Translations under genes and position numbers: made by a program | Part shown: in pieces, positions 11,844 to 18,663 of the stretch | Numbering within the stretch: the first letter of the stretch is position 1 | Layout: the number at the start of each line of letters is the position of its first letter | Virus record (IMG/VR): IMGVR_UViG_3300031703_000058 | Location: 1-22,825 of that record | From: a virus | Reading direction: 5' to 3' (one strand) | Length of the DNA stretch: 22,825 nucleotides | Notes under the pieces: model-generated | Database searches by the model: none | Seen by the model: the letters and a program-made list of their open reading frames with translations, nothing else | What the model was told of the DNA's origin: nothing

Positions 11844-13922
11844 TTATTTTACGCCCGGGTAGTGTCCTTGATTCGGCATGTTAACCGGGGCAATTTCAGA
11901 TTGTTTTGTGCCCCAAGGTGATTTAATAAAACTTGGTGGTATATTTCTGTCTTTTTTATAAGCATCTAAATTGTCAGATGGTTCGGTGTTCTTTTTAAGG
12001 CGATATAAAACGCGAACCCATTTATGACGGCAATATACACCCCCCTTAAATTTAAACAAATCGTAGGCTTTTCCTTTGTGTCCTAGCCTATCATTTACGC
12101 CGTCCCTTGATGCTTCGTCTATACCCTCTAGTCTGTAAACAACACCTCTTTTAGATAAATTCATCATATTTTTACAAAAATCTCTTGACTCGTTTCCATC
12201 TTTCATTTGCTTTGTAGACCCAACCGCGTACTTGTATCTAATCTTATAATTTTTACTATCTAAATAACTAAAACCATTTGGCCTTGATGTGACTTCATCG
12301 GCAAATTTTCTAAAGAAAGATTTTTTTTGTTTAATACATAAATTGGCCCAATCTTCATCACTTATTTGTACGTCTGTGTCTAATTGATCTACCAATTCGT
12401 ATTCATCACCTATAGTTTCACCTTTTAAATTATTTAAAATTTGCTCTCCCAAATCATCAGATAAAAATTCCGAATGCGATTCACAAGGCATATACCAAGT
12501 CTTGCCGTCTTCTTCAATATGTTCGTGAAAACCTTTACAACCTATCATTTTTGCAATTTCTTGGGCTTCTTCTTTTGTTGCGTAGGCTTGTTTTCCGTCA
12601 ATTTGTTTTAAATCTATTGTCGCCATATTGGCTTTAATATAACCGCAAATTTTTGGGGCCGCTTCTGCGCCGTATCTTTCGGTTTGCTCTTTTATGCAAG
12701 TGTCCCAAGGGTATTTTTCAAGATTTACCTTTGACATTTCAAGCCCGGTTTCTTCTTCAATAGTTTCTTTGTCTTGCAAAGTCTTATCTACCTCTGTAAA
12801 TTCAAGTGGTTGTAAGGTCGTAAAGTATAGGTTTAAGCTAATTTCGTTATAAGCTAGTATCTTATCAAAGTTATCTATTAAAAGTTCTTGAAATGGCCTT
12901 ATAATAGTGTTATCCATGAGAATGGAAGCGGCGGTGATTTCATCGGCATTATTTCCGAAACCGGACCCATTATTAATACCTAGTAATTTTGGTGAAACTA
13001 CCCGGTGAGATAACATTACTTTTTTTTCGCACTCTTCCGACAAAAATTGATATTGATTGTGCGCATCACTTAATTGAACCGGCGTTATTTCGGCTTGGCT
13101 CTCTTTATTGTCATTAAAGCTTACAATCATACGGCCGCTATTACTTGACCCTTGAAATTTTGCGGCTATCCTACTTTCAATTAATTTACGTTCCTGTTGG
13201 TTTGGGACCCCATTATTAAAATTTAATAAAAGCCCCGGGCTTAAACCATTAAGAATATTGTTTAAATGATAGTTTGATACCTCCTCTTCGAGCTCACTAT
13301 ATTGAAGCCCACCTTGATAGTCTACCGGGGAATAGTAATAAAAACCACTTTTATAGGGCTTTATGTATAATATTTCAATATCATCATTTGACATACCCCA
13401 AGCCGAAATTCTTATTGGTTCATCGGCATTAGTAAGATTTACCCAATCATTAAAATAGTAATACGCCGGTACGTTCCCATCTTCATCACATTTTGCAGCG
13501 CGTAAAGTTTCAATAGGCATGTGTTCAATTTCAGCAATTCTAGTTCTATCTTTTGAATACACAACTTGAATAGCACATTGGCCCATTAGTTTCAGATCAT
13601 AGCACAATTTTCTTACTATTTCTTTTTTAAACAAAGATACCATCTGTGCATACTCATTCGGTCTTCGGTTACTATCGGTAGCGTTTAAGCCTTTACCATA
13701 AATTTGTTGGCTTATACCATTTATACATGCTGAATTTGTTGGTGAACCATTAAATCGGTCTATCAAAAATTTGAAATGGTCATTATATTCGCCATACGAA
13801 ACCCAAGCTTCGCCGTCTACTTCTTTTACAATTGGGCTAGAATAGGTGTTTAATTGAATAAAGCTAGTTTCTGAATTTTTAGTTTTTTTGGCAAATTGTC
13901 CCTTGCTATTTCTTTTTCTCAT
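11844..13922 (-). CDS. Portal protein with extra C-terminal domains
   Basis: A 692-aa protein. Residues about 1-385 look like a portal: a basic start, GLNATD, SHRVVSPKLLGINNGSGFGN and IRPFQELLIDNFDKIL, typical of Bacteroidota phage portals. Added parts follow: YPWDTC...RYG...APKICGYIKA (404-431), a Cys/His motif GCKGFHEH...WYMPCESHSEF (461-486), and, at 579-641, SRDFCKNM with GVYCRHKWVRVLYR, resembling the C-terminal domain often attached to minor head or protease proteins. The start overlaps the previous stop as ATGA. Portals of this kind are commonly 400-550 aa, so the extension is notable. It probably forms the DNA channel and carries head-maturation functions; that is inference. Confidence 0.8.
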   Translation of the reverse strand: MRKRNSKGQFAKKTKNSETSFIQLNTYSSPIVKEVDGEAWVSYGEYNDHFKFLIDRFNGSPTNSACINGISQQIYGKGLNATDSNRRPNEYAQMVSLFKKEIVRKLCYDLKLMGQCAIQVVYSKDRTRIAEIEHMPIETLRAAKCDEDGNVPAYYYFNDWVNLTNADEPIRISAWGMSNDDIEILYIKPYKSGFYYYSPVDYQGGLQYSELEEEVSNYHLNNILNGLSPGLLLNFNNGVPNQQERKLIESRIAAKFQGSSNSGRMIVSFNDNKESQAEITPVQLSDAHNQYQFLSEECEKKVMLSHRVVSPKLLGINNGSGFGNNADEITAASILMDNTIIRPFQELLIDNFDKILAYNEISLNLYFTTLQPLEFTEVDKTLQDKETIEEETGLEMSKVNLEKYPWDTCIKEQTERYGAEAAPKICGYIKANMATIDLKQIDGKQAYATKEEAQEIAKMIGCKGFHEHIEEDGKTWYMPCESHSEFLSDDLGEQILNNLKGETIGDEYELVDQLDTDVQISDEDWANLCIKQKKSFFRKFADEVTSRPNGFSYLDSKNYKIRYKYAVGSTKQMKDGNESRDFCKNMMNLSKRGVVYRLEGIDEASRDGVNDRLGHKGKAYDLFKFKGGVYCRHKWVRVLYRLKKNTEPSDNLDAYKKDRNIPPSFIKSPWGTKQSEIAPVNMPNQGHYPGVK

Positions 13923-15010: not shown

Positions 15011-16018
15011 TTAAGCGTATTGTACGATGTCATTTGTCCCAAATTGTACCCCCGAAGTAAACCTCATTACCATACGGATTGTATCGCTGCCGTCCAAATT
15101 TGTCATGTCTAAAACCTTGATTTCGTTTGAATTATTCATTAAACCGGTCCCAAAAAATAAATTTGACCTTTGCGCCGCGTACATTTTATTGTCACTCATT
15201 CCCGGACAAACAAAAACTTTAACGCCGTTCACCATTAGTGAGCCGTTATTATACCAAGTTGGACCCATGTTATTAACACCGGCGGCCCCTTGGCCATTTG
15301 CTAAAAACCCCCCGAGAGCAGCCACATACAATTTTGCCGCTTTGCTTGATACATATACAAAAAGGTCTTCCTTACCAAAAAGTGTATTTGGTATTGCGTT
15401 TGTAACCTTTGTCATTTCACCGATTATATTTGCAGCCGTTAAACCACCACCGGGTGCCAACACAACTTGTGCCGCCGGTATATCACCGGCCGTTACAGCG
15501 GTTTGTATAATTTTTTCAAAACCATCAAAAGAATTAGGTGCCGTTACGCTGTTAAAATCACCTCTCCAAATATTTTGCTCATTATTACTCGCAACTTCCG
15601 CAGAAACGTGAGCAATTAGAAAATCTGAAAAATTAGGCGGTAATGTTTGTGAAAGACCATAACCCATTTGTTCCGATTCCCAATTTTTTACAAAATCTTT
15701 TCGGCAAAGGCTCAAGTTTACTTGTAAAGGCTTCGGCTCTAAAATACGTTCTGTAAGTGTAATTGTAGATGTCGCGTCAAATTCACATGTAGCGGTCTTT
15801 ACCAACCCATCGGTTCCCAATTTCTGTATAACCTCTTTCCATGAGATGTTAGCCTTAATGGTGAGGCCGCCATCATCAATAGTACTCGCACTCAATAAAG
15901 CTGCTGCGATATATTCACCGGCGAAAGACCCGGCATAACTTGAATTTATAACTACGGCGGTAGCAAGGTTTACATTCCTTTTACTTAAACCTACATTTCT
16001 TTTGTTTAATTTATTCAT
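15011..16018 (-). CDS. Major capsid protein
   Basis: A 335-aa HK97-type-sized capsid subunit. The N-terminus (LNKRNVGLSKRNVNLATAVV) is basic and then hydrophobic; the middle holds WKEVIQKLGTDGLVK, ILEPKPLQVNLSLCRKDFV and a flexible loop-like stretch; the C-terminal half has YVSSKAAKLYVAALGG, VNGVKVFVCPGMSDNKMYAAQRSNLFFGTGL and IRMVMRFTSGVQFG, the usual end of capsid proteins in this group. It lies directly after the scaffold-like gene (5-nt gap) and before a terminator, matching a high-output gene. It assembles the head shell with the portal. Confidence 0.85.
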   Translation of the reverse strand: MNKLNKRNVGLSKRNVNLATAVVINSSYAGSFAGEYIAAALLSASTIDDGGLTIKANISWKEVIQKLGTDGLVKTATCEFDATSTITLTERILEPKPLQVNLSLCRKDFVKNWESEQMGYGLSQTLPPNFSDFLIAHVSAEVASNNEQNIWRGDFNSVTAPNSFDGFEKIIQTAVTAGDIPAAQVVLAPGGGLTAANIIGEMTKVTNAIPNTLFGKEDLFVYVSSKAAKLYVAALGGFLANGQGAAGVNNMGPTWYNNGSLMVNGVKVFVCPGMSDNKMYAAQRSNLFFGTGLMNNSNEIKVLDMTNLDGSDTIRMVMRFTSGVQFGTNDIVQYA

Positions 16019-16023
16019 TTTTA

Positions 16024-16590
16024 TTATTTATTTAATTTGCTTAATACTCTATCTAAAGTTGTTCTATATTGACCTTTACCAAATTGCACTTGTGTTTTTT
16101 GTGGTGTTTTTGATTCGGGGCTATGTCGTAAAGGTTTTCTTGATGCACTCATTTTTTCTTTTTTCTTTTCTTCAGAATAAAGTTTTTTAAGTTCTTCAAT
16201 ATCGGCTTTTACTTCTTCAATTACCGGGGCAATAACTTCAACAACGGCTTCAATAATTGCTTCAATTTCGGTCGCTACTTCTTCGGGTACTTCGGTTTCA
16301 ATAACTTCTTCAAGGTCTTCGGTTTCTTCTTTTGCCGGTACTTCATCAGATACTTCGCGTACATCTGCTATAAGACCCTCGGCTTCTACAACAACCAAAC
16401 GCCCATCTTCGAGTAAATACTCACCCACAGGCATTGCGATTTTTTCTTCATCGCTCATAATAAAAATTTCACTATCTTTTTCAAAAGTTTCGGCGGATAC
16501 AATAGTTCCGTTTTCTAACTTCATTTCTTCAAGCTTCACTTCTATATTTAAAAGCGTTCTAATTTGATTTAACATTTTTGTTTTTTCCAT
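16024..16590 (-). CDS. Scaffold-like acidic protein
   Basis: A 188-aa protein expected to guide capsid assembly and be cleared by the protease. The N-terminal 85 residues hold MLNQIRTLLNIEVKLEEMKL, NGTIVSAETFEKDSEIFIM and VGEYLLEDGRLVVVEAEG, a pattern I know from scaffold-type proteins of Bacteroidota phages. A long Glu/Val/Ile-rich, low-complexity stretch (about 90-140) follows, probably a flexible or helical spacer, then a basic linker and YRTTLDRVLSKLNK at the end, likely the capsid-binding helix. Position between the paralog group and the capsid gene agrees. A CGTTATATA motif lies 6 nt before the ATG. Confidence 0.7.
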   Translation of the reverse strand: MEKTKMLNQIRTLLNIEVKLEEMKLENGTIVSAETFEKDSEIFIMSDEEKIAMPVGEYLLEDGRLVVVEAEGLIADVREVSDEVPAKEETEDLEEVIETEVPEEVATEIEAIIEAVVEVIAPVIEEVKADIEELKKLYSEEKKKEKMSASRKPLRHSPESKTPQKTQVQFGKGQYRTTLDRVLSKLNK

Positions 16591-16632: not shown

Positions 16633-16791
16633 CTATGTCCTTGTTATTGATCCGATGCCTTGCGCTTCAAATGAACCATCACAACATTCAATAGAATAAG
16701 TTGATGTGTCCCAACAAAGGCACGCGCTATTACCCCCTAATGGCGATGAATTACTTTCAATTATTGGCTTATTTTTATTTCTTCTATTCAT
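16633..16791 (-). CDS. Cysteine-rich CDGS microprotein (52 aa)
   Basis: A 52-residue protein: a basic start (MNRRNKNKP), then ACLCWDTSTYSIECCDGSFE and AQGIGSITRT. The four cysteines (C24, C26, C36, C37) lie in a C-x-C...C-C-D-G-S...Q-G-I-G signature that I have seen in small Bacteroidota phage proteins and on larger virion proteins. Function is unknown; metal binding or a capsid-associated role is possible. It is coupled to the last paralog by TAATG and precedes the scaffold-like gene. Confidence 0.65.
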   Translation of the reverse strand: MNRRNKNKPIIESNSSPLGGNSACLCWDTSTYSIECCDGSFEAQGIGSITRT

Positions 16792-17225
16792 TAAATAGAG
16801 CGGCTTTCATCTGAAAATCTTTGTTTTTGGCTTTCAAATTCATTTTGTTGTTCTTGAAAAAATTCTATTTCCCTAATGTGTTCTTCCCAATTCGGGTATA
16901 CATCATTTACATCAATTCCAAGTTCATCAGCTTTTTCTTTAATCCCATTTAATCTTTCCAAATCATCGGCCACATCATCGGGGGTTAAAAAACTCTCGGA
17001 GTTATTAAAATATACATCGTAAATTTCGCGGCCTATTTCATACCAAGCATCATATTTTTCATCAAACCATTCATCTACCGAATAACTTAAACGGCCCACT
17101 TCATCTCTTAATGTTTCAAATTCATAGTCTAATTCATCTACAAGGCCCAATTTTACGTTTTGTCTTTTAAGGCTTGTTTTTTTATTTGCTATTCTTGCAA
17201 ACACTTTTTCTTTTGTCGTTTTCAT
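16791..17225 (-). CDS. Head-block paralog C (144 aa)
   Basis: Third of three tandem related proteins. N-terminus KEKVFARIANKKTSLKRQNV then KLGLVDELD; middle acidic helices; KADELGIDVNDVYPNW near 105-120. The start is the ATG at 17225, not a frame start at 17258, because the paralogs begin the same way. No family assigned. Location between protease and scaffold suggests a prohead-internal or head decoration part. Confidence 0.72.
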   Translation of the reverse strand: MKTTKEKVFARIANKKTSLKRQNVKLGLVDELDYEFETLRDEVGRLSYSVDEWFDEKYDAWYEIGREIYDVYFNNSESFLTPDDVADDLERLNGIKEKADELGIDVNDVYPNWEEHIREIEFFQEQQNEFESQKQRFSDESRSI

Positions 17226-17242
17226 TTTTATATATATATTAA

Positions 17243-17698
17243 TTAGGCGTTTTTCCAAAAATCATTAAAACCGGTATAACTTGTAACTTCGCGGTATTTG
17301 TCTTTTGCATCGGATATTAAAGCCGGGGCATTGTCTACCCTTTGTTTTAAATCATCAAAATCACTATAAATTTCGTTTGGGTCAATACCTAATTCATCGG
17401 CTTTTGTTTCTAATTCATTTAAAGCTTCGGTTAAAATTTCGGTAATTTCCGGTAAATCGGTTGTTGTACCATTTATAATATAATCATCAAGGCTATATTT
17501 CATTTTAAAATCATCATAGGCATCAATTATTTCATCGCCATATTCATAAGCTAAATATGAAGCTTCGCTTTCGGCTTGGTCAAAGGCATCGGCTTCTGTT
17601 TCAATTGTTGAAACTAATGACAAATCTACTTTATGTGATTTAAGGCTAGTTTTATTTGCCGCTATTTTATCAAATACTCTTTTTTTGGTGTTTCGCAT
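17243..17698 (-). CDS. Head-block paralog B (151 aa)
   Basis: Second of the three paralogs. N-terminus KKRVFDKIAANKTSLKSHKV then DLSLVSTIE; middle acidic and helical (AFDQAESEASYLAYEYGDEI); then KADELGIDPNEIYSDFDDLK; Tyr/Phe/Trp-rich end (TSYTGFNDFWKNA). 17 nt separate it from paralog C. Function unknown; a shared N-terminal sorting or cleavage signal is inferred. Confidence 0.72.
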   Translation of the reverse strand: MRNTKKRVFDKIAANKTSLKSHKVDLSLVSTIETEADAFDQAESEASYLAYEYGDEIIDAYDDFKMKYSLDDYIINGTTTDLPEITEILTEALNELETKADELGIDPNEIYSDFDDLKQRVDNAPALISDAKDKYREVTSYTGFNDFWKNA

Positions 17699-17699
17699 T

Positions 17700-18086
17700 T
17701 TATATTTGGTTTAATTTTGAATTTGCTTCATTTATTTTTTCCAAAGATTCTTCGTAAAGGTCAAAAGAATCTTTAAATTGGTTTAATTCGCTAGGTTCTA
17801 CGCCCAATTCTTTAGCCAAATCTTCGGTTTCAATAAGCTTTTGTTCTAGCCTATTTGTTTCATCGATTAAATTTTCCAAGTCTACTTCTAAACTATTTGA
17901 AAAACTAGCAAATTCGCTTTGTATTCTTTCAAGTTCTTCAAAGTCAATTTCTATATTTTGTAAAATTACACTTACACTTGATGCAATACTTGTTAATTCA
18001 AAAACTACGTTTAATTCTATATTATGCTTTTTAAATTTTTTTTTCTTTGGCATTTTAGAATTTACCCTATCAATACTATTTTTCAT
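17700..18086 (-). CDS. Head-block paralog A (128 aa)
   Basis: First and most divergent of the three paralogs. N-terminus KNSIDRVNSKMPKKKKFKKH then NIELNVVFEL; coiled-coil-like acidic centre (LENLIDETNRLEQKLIETED); LAKELGVEPSELNQFKDSFD near the end. The KTSL of B and C is replaced by a Lys-rich run. It overlaps the protease gene by 11 nt and sits 1 nt before paralog B. Function unknown. Confidence 0.7.
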   Translation of the reverse strand: MKNSIDRVNSKMPKKKKFKKHNIELNVVFELTSIASSVSVILQNIEIDFEELERIQSEFASFSNSLEVDLENLIDETNRLEQKLIETEDLAKELGVEPSELNQFKDSFDLYEESLEKINEANSKLNQI

Positions 18087-18663
18087 TTAATATATCTTTT
18101 ATTTGGTTTAATACTTGTCCCGACATTTTTTCTTTGTCTTTTGGTTTGCTTGAAATTTTATCGGCAAAAAATCCCTCTATACTGAAACCCTTGCAAAGAC
18201 CCGATAAAATATATTGGTCCCAAACTTCATCATTATTGACCTTAATACTTCCTACCCACGAACCAACCGGTACGTCAAGGCCATACAATGCCGTTTTATC
18301 TTTTTGTTTATCTTCGACAATCCAACTTTCAACCAAGGTAAGCCCGGTTATTTTGCTAGCATGCTCTAATGTAGCATTGCTTTGATTACCATTTTGAAGA
18401 AATAGTTGTGATGCCTTATTTATAGTTTCTTTTGAAAAAAATATGTAATATTCGCCGTTTTCATCTTTTCTATAAATCGGCTTGTCCGGTATTAATAAAG
18501 GCCCCATTAAGATTTTCTTTTCTTTATCTACTTCGGCAAGTTTTATTTCTTGCTTTTTGAGCGCGACAAAGGGGCTCTCAATGGCCGGGTCCGATACAAT
18601 TGAGATTGCTTCAATTCCGGCTTCAAAATCGTTTTCATCTAAAATTAGTTCTATGATCTTCAT
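18076..18663 (-). CDS. Prohead protease, XkdF/S78_2-like
   Basis: A 195-aa serine protease expected to process scaffold and capsid partners. MKIIELILDENDFEAGIEAISIV and DPAIESPFVAL form the usual N-terminus; ILMGPLLIPDKPIYR follows; the likely catalytic His is H101 in LEHA and the likely Ser is S114 in VESWIV; then GSWVGSIKVNNDEVWDQY and GFSIEGFF close the fold. All of these match the XkdF-like putative serine protease family. It is the first gene of the head block, downstream of the tape measure. A CGTTATATA motif lies 3 nt before the ATG. Confidence 0.85.
   Translation of the reverse strand: MKIIELILDENDFEAGIEAISIVSDPAIESPFVALKKQEIKLAEVDKEKKILMGPLLIPDKPIYRKDENGEYYIFFSKETINKASQLFLQNGNQSNATLEHASKITGLTLVESWIVEDKQKDKTALYGLDVPVGSWVGSIKVNNDEVWDQYILSGLCKGFSIEGFFADKISSKPKDKEKMSGQVLNQIKDILNEK

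Follow-up and report, generated by a model that had tools for sequence, protein, structure and literature searches.

A variable gene family between the prohead protease and scaffold of uncultivated marine phages: candidate cargo with a leader resembling the scaffold tail

Introduction

What are three small tandem genes doing between the prohead protease and the scaffold of a phage? The question is raised by a stretch of DNA of 22,825 nucleotides (22.8 kb) from IMG/VR virus record IMGVR_UViG_3300031703_000058, positions 1 to 22,825, hereafter the window, in which the main genes lie on the minus strand. Read as transcribed, the head block runs from an XkdF-type protease through the three genes, here called A, B and C, to a 52 aa protein, the scaffold and the MCP, with the portal further on (Table 1). 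The protease scores 60.2 bits against Pfam PF14550, above the curated cut-off of 24, and the 52 aa protein yielded no annotation. We compared this block with more than 200 related loci (L numbers below), gathered by scanning with alignments of the MCP, the protease and the family. The group probably consists of uncultivated marine Bacteroidetes phages, a host assignment suggested by one MAG contig and by what the nearest cultured phages infect.

Table 1 Features of the head block in the window, with the coordinates of two kinds of protein at related loci.
Feature	Position	Strand	Evidence
Prohead protease, XkdF type (Peptidase_S78_2), 195 aa	18076..18663	-	PF14550 E=2.6e-16, phrog_24921 E=7.5e-51
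EIKLA (EIKLAEVD), protease residues 39-43, candidate site	18535..18549	-	same place in 24/30 distinct protease segments
Candidate cargo gene A, 128 aa	17700..18086	-	independent profile E=7e-22; AF2 mean pLDDT 89.7
Leader of A, MKNSIDRVNSKMPKKKKFKKHNIELNVVFEL	17994..18086	-	conservation break near residue 32; AF2 confidence low, about 59 over first 20 residues
Candidate cargo gene B, 151 aa	17243..17698	-	independent profile E=7e-31; AF2 mean pLDDT 85.1, three-helix body
Leader of B, MRNTKKRVFDKIAANKTSLKSHKVDLSLVSTI	17603..17698	-	family conservation, leader/body identities, AF2 model
KVDLS, candidate leader/body cleavage junction of B	17618..17632	-	motif statistics; L015/L024 swap boundary after KVALG
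Candidate cargo gene C, 144 aa, from ATG	16791..17225	-	BLASTP to B E=6e-17; L085 orthologue in same position
Leader of C, MKTTKEKVFARIANKKTSLKRQNVKLGLVDEL	17130..17225	-	family conservation; L085 comparison
NVKLG, candidate leader/body cleavage junction of C	17145..17159	-	motif statistics
52 aa CLCWDT...CCDGS...AQGIG protein, conserved slot boundary	16633..16791	-	present in each inspected slot
Scaffold, 188 aa	16024..16590	-	phrog_24921 second half E=3.6e-6; location between protease and MCP
EVKLE (EVKLEE), scaffold N-terminus, candidate site	16528..16542	-	same position in about 25-26/42 distinct scaffold segments
Scaffold C-terminal tail TTLDRVLSKLNK, resembled by leaders	16027..16062	-	PSSM scan with permutation; hhalign E=0.0021
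MCP, 335 aa	15011..16018	-	phrog_11320 E=2e-28; P12024S gp2 homologue; position and conservation in relatives
NVNLA (NVNLAT), MCP N-terminus, candidate site	15962..15976	-	26/37 distinct MCP N-arms
Fusions of protease and candidate cargo body	L013 3634-4521, L023 2365-3273, L038 3812-4741, L072 3-644, L204 105-1058		
MGNLKISALPAATELQGDENIVVVQNG protein	L028 3355-3804, L091 1709-2161, L093 2176-2628, L204 1990-2439		

Results

A, B and C belong together by profile search

B and C are clear paralogues, 35% identical over 117 aa (BLASTP, Table 1). Pairwise BLAST of A against B gave a borderline match located at the ELG motif (E=0.002), and A against C gave no match. We built an independent profile from related loci, leaving out the window sequences and their nearest relatives, and it recovered A and B with the E values listed in Table 1, against 0.012 for the best control, a shuffle, among 600 shuffles and the other window ORFs; C has no separate score because an identical copy at L001 stood for it. 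By this profile, copy A groups with B and C in one family. An earlier note, made from the letters of the window, had read three tandem homologous genes between protease and scaffold with two shared signatures, and this reading holds: the pattern beats chance, the N-terminal signature is a genuine family feature in an alignment of 96 distinct complete members, and the second signature is equally genuine, taking the form A-x-E-L-G-[IV]-[DE], in which L and G hardly vary across the family. Further copies exist beyond the window, and the related phage L003 likewise has three in tandem.

A conserved leader precedes a variable helical body

In the alignment of 96 members, columns 1-32 carry about 2-4.3 bits each and column 33 falls to about 1 bit, delimiting a leader of about 27-32 residues; beyond column 33 lies one conserved island, A-x-[ED]-L-G-[IV]. 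Median pairwise identity is 57% in the leader versus 23% in the body over 8,778 pairs, and 41 pairs combine leaders at least 90% identical with bodies less than 25% identical, both pair counts being inflated by relatedness. AF2 models of A and B, computed from their own alignments, show a leader of low confidence followed by a body predicted confidently as a helical bundle, in which the ELG motif forms the turn preceding the last long helix. The leaders of A, B and C each carry a net charge of +6 and their bodies -17, -23 and -22, respectively. Across the family, the median body charge is -12.1 per 100 aa, against -11.7 for the scaffold. We considered DNA mimicry by all bodies and dropped it for the family, since 27 of 124 bodies are neutral or basic.

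Searches of 70 members against PHROGs and Pfam gave nothing convincing for the bodies, with scattered coiled-coil noise, and a fold search returned no PDB match with E<1, the best viral model being an unnamed protein at E=0.22. Nearly all bodies nonetheless fit a single profile with the A-x-E-L-G turn, which does not cover a few leader-bearing proteins.

Body exchange behind leaders that keep their place

The clearest exchange was observed between loci L015 and L024, whose MCP genes are 92% and protease genes 95% identical. In their last copy of the family, the leader DNA is 99% and the body DNA 53% identical; identity starts at the leader ATG, is lost immediately behind the KVALG codons and returns at the ATG of the next gene, the 52 aa CLCWDT gene, showing that bodies have been swapped behind a retained leader. 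Comparison of the window with its sister locus L085 showed a like exchange in copy 1, with leader and body identities of 63% and 27% for that copy, 81% and 61% for copy 2, and 75% and 76% for copy 3. Copies 2 and 3 are thus orthologues in place, and the closest window relative of the L085 copy 1 body is window copy 3 (44%). Window A, in turn, is 70% identical overall to a relative in the more distant phage L178. Leader type also follows array position: earlier copies comprise 44 NI-type leaders and 1 RL-type, last copies 30 RL-type and 9 NI-type. Together, these three patterns indicate that leaders hold their position in the array while the bodies behind them are exchanged.

Simple recent tandem duplication is ruled out, as each of copies 2 and 3 is closer to the L085 copy at the same position than to the other. 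The repeated duplication that the earlier note had seen at this locus is therefore not a series of simple recent events, and its suggestion that A is the oldest copy finds no support, the leader of A being of the usual first-position type and its body differing from that of L085 copy 1.

The genes occupy one slot in varying number

All 237 leader-bearing ORFs lie inside the slot between protease and scaffold, and none outside it. Among 118 loci with both slot ends, 42 have no family gene, 34 have one, 36 have two (in 4 of these, one of the two bodies is a protease fusion) and 6 have three; with near-duplicates removed, the 87 distinct loci hold none (32), one (21), two (28) or three (6). On an MCP tree of 81 rows, copy number must have changed at least 32 times; for the zero-copy state, well-supported branches call for 11 changes or more. 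This frequent absence, together with the number of changes, marks the genes as dispensable and quick to turn over. The small CLCWDT gene was found in each inspected slot, including the empty ones.

A tblastn search of an annotated phage collection (50,697 records) gave no match to the family, and no cultured phage with it was found. In 399 genomes of Flavobacteriaceae, the family of the MAG, 8 weak matches were found, each lacking the leader's first half. The sole locus on a genome contig belongs to a Flavobacteriaceae MAG, and its slot is empty.

The leader resembles the C-terminal tail of the scaffold

Scaffolds of this group end near-invariantly in TTLDRVL[SN]KLNK. We scanned a PSSM of these 12 tail residues over 2,040 distinct non-scaffold ORF products, and 69 of the top 100 matches were leader proteins; 93% of leader proteins have their highest-scoring window at the N-terminus. 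The observed median was reached in 0 of 500 column permutations, a test that relatedness inflates, and two top "non-scaffold" matches turned out to be divergent scaffolds (L003, L190). Profile comparison with hhalign aligned leader residues 3-14 with the last 12 scaffold columns, the best of six targets (E=0.0021), at a probability of just 13.5%; the resemblance spans 12 residues. The scaffold N-terminus was considered as a source of the leader and gave a weaker match than the C-terminus (hhalign E=0.084). A protein of the cultured phage P12024S, a distant relative, ends in LAERLENLNK, a pattern similar to the scaffold tail of the window. The C-terminus of the P22 scaffold is a coat-binding element that can load fused cargo into capsids (PMC9962691). 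In the phages studied here, the scaffold tail probably binds the MCP.

The leader/body junction carries a candidate protease-site motif

At the leader/body junction, a motif (KVALG, KVELG, KVDLS) stands at a near-fixed position in 92 of 120 leaders; the junction of copy A is weaker (NIELN). We described it with the pattern [KREQN]-[VI]-x-L-[AGSE]-x-[VIMTA], composed after the motif had been seen, which has a background of 8e-5 per residue in other proteins, with several of these background matches falling in MCP or protease copies that had escaped the sorting. The motif recurs at fixed spots in the leader, the protease, the scaffold and the MCP, all expected protease substrates, making it a candidate protease site (Table 1). 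Also, the MCP of P12024S starts at the point where a cut at the motif would leave other MCPs. As the pattern was composed post hoc and the motif adjoins the catalytic domain of the protease, we treat it as a lead and no proof; in the protease the motif may be structural, as it borders the start of that domain.

In some loci, a body of the family is fused to the protease (Table 1), with the protease tail in place of the first half of the leader and the KVxL part retained in most, as would be expected if the body still needs release. Free copies in L133 and L143 match the fused body of L013 at 97-99% identity.

Discussion

Proposed role of the family

We consider it probable, at roughly 0.6, that A, B and C are cargo proteins, each composed of a capsid-targeting leader mimicking the scaffold, a protease site and an exchangeable acidic three-helix body. 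The basic leader of about 27-32 aa, with its helical motif x-[LI]-[ED]-[KR]-V-x-x-K-[LM]-[PN], would imitate the C-terminal tail of the scaffold and bring the protein into the prohead as it grows, through binding to the partner of that tail, probably the MCP. The XkdF protease would probably then cut at the KVxL-[AGS] junction and may likewise cut the scaffold, the MCP and itself; the acidic body would remain inside the head after the cut. At infection, the body would probably enter the host with the DNA; its variability would fit, more speculatively, an arms race against host defences. Presence in the virion, cleavage of the leader and ejection are predicted steps of this scheme. The earlier note had likewise proposed head-internal proteins with a common, removable leader, and this part stands well, in that the architecture, with its conservation break, body swaps, scaffold-tail likeness, shared motif and protease-body fusions keeping the motif, is what such proteins should display; the part built on simple duplications and an oldest copy A falls away, leaving the proposal partly supported. 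Against the reading of the three as cargo, we count that a single weak fold and the ELG turn are common to the bodies, whereas those of the T4 internal proteins are unrelated.

The most serious competitor, although we hold it to be unlikely, is that the proteins are accessory scaffold or core proteins, which would enter the prohead through the scaffold-like motif, tune its assembly or size and then be degraded or expelled, with no delivery. The bodies are as acidic as the scaffold and all helical, the leader is like the scaffold tail, the genes adjoin the scaffold gene, and IPIII of T4 likewise influences head assembly (PMC9026906). This reading sits poorly with the 32 of 87 distinct loci that lack copies despite having the same protease, scaffold and MCP, and with the exchange of whole bodies between phages of nearly identical MCP.

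Alternatively, the leader could be conserved mainly as a DNA recombination anchor for body exchange, its peptide targeting nothing. Where different phages have identical leaders, the underlying DNA agrees at 98%, silent changes being few, and the block of identity begins at the ATG, both as an anchor would have it; we nevertheless find this improbable, for the peptide pattern persists despite DNA divergence, both in the L003 leaders and between window and RL-type leaders (38-50% identical), and the leader matches the scaffold tail in register.

It is more doubtful still that these are non-virion proteins acting on the capsid or scaffold pathway in the infected cell, for example as chaperones or as blockers of rival phages or satellites, with the scaffold-like leader serving to bind capsid protein: such a peptide could sequester capsid protein, and variability and copy turnover suit a conflict, but the shared KVxL junction, kept in protease fusions, is left unexplained. 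Outer head decoration or neck proteins are least probable, since the leader resembles an internal scaffold tail, the genes lie between protease and scaffold and the acidic helical bodies have no match to decoration proteins, even though small variable proteins of head genes often lie on the surface and some relatives have another protein, fibre-like and of 150 aa, inserted close by.

Comparison with known systems

Returning to A, B and C as cargo, their organisation suggests that they work like the capsid-targeted internal proteins of T4, by analogy and without homology. In T4, a short N-terminal signal packs the internal proteins, the protease removes the signal and the proteins are then injected; each of Ip1-3 is an inhibitor of a different GmrSD restriction enzyme, and only the leader is common to them (PMC9026906, PMC3012670, PMC12373910). 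Like IPI-IPIII, the proteins described here carry a short conserved N-terminal leader on small variable proteins (57% versus 23% identity, with the break near residue 32), occur several per phage, are dispensable and form a set that is plastic among related phages, each encoding a prohead protease, which here may remove the leader at the candidate KVxL-[AGS] site. The T4 leader has 10-19 aa against 27-32 aa here, where it resembles the scaffold C-terminal tail; T4 bodies are basic and unrelated to one another, whereas nearly all bodies here fit one profile, a divergent helical family, mostly acidic, with the ELG turn; and the T4 protease is gp21, whereas that of these marine Bacteroidetes phages is of the XkdF type. 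Homology to known internal proteins was found neither with the 70 members searched against PHROGs and Pfam nor by tblastn in the 50,697 phage records.

In P1, DarB carries an N-terminal packaging signal, about 30 N-terminal residues directing the protein into the head, and the head-internal Dar proteins act against restriction (PMC9024508). DarB is very large, and the Dar proteins are unrelated to the family described here, with no homology found. The P22 system shares with our proposal a coat-binding scaffold C-terminus that suffices for cargo loading (PMC9962691); its tag is engineered and at the C-terminus of the fusion, whereas here a natural N-terminal leader would do the loading. The nearest cultured relatives are the Nonlabens (Persicivirga) phages P12024S and P12024L (gp1-gp2, NC_018271), homologous in protease and MCP. 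In these, the scaffold region is fused to the protease, its LAERLENLNK end is directly followed by the MCP, and there are no family genes.

We can put forward a wider claim only tentatively and at rather less than even odds, namely that the leader is a portable loading tag mimicking the capsid-binding tail of the scaffold, with acidic helical bodies swapped at the protease site to give a head-packed, injected anti-defence set that arose independently of that of T4. If the cargo reading is true, these marine phages would hold a separate counterpart of T4-style protein loading with a different protease, one in which the origin of the targeting signal is visible as a copy of the scaffold tail. 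It would then predict which small uncharacterised genes of these phages are delivered at infection, name a probable cleavage motif of XkdF-type prohead proteases and provide a hypervariable set of candidate anti-defence proteins in marine Flavobacteriaceae phages. The leader profile is offered for finding more such proteins.

Other observations on the head block

Some relatives carry, between protease and scaffold and beside the CLCWDT gene, a protein of 149-150 aa (MGNLKISALPAATELQGDENIVVVQNG...) in which the leader is absent; it may be a fibre or decoration protein. The MCP N-terminus of the window (15962-16018, minus strand) is longer than that of relatives, which start MKKRNVNLAT, and has the motif doubled (NVGLSKRNVNLAT). 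At L003 (1044-1244), a 66 aa slot protein joins a leader-like N-terminus (MNAINRINSKLF) to a YPWDECI...AAPKICGYIK domain, whose counterpart in the window forms part of the C-terminal extension of the portal. That portal (11844-13922, minus strand) has 692 aa, and its long C-terminal extension contains a DUF3721 match at residues 447-484 and the corresponding YPWDTCI...AAPKICGYIK segment.
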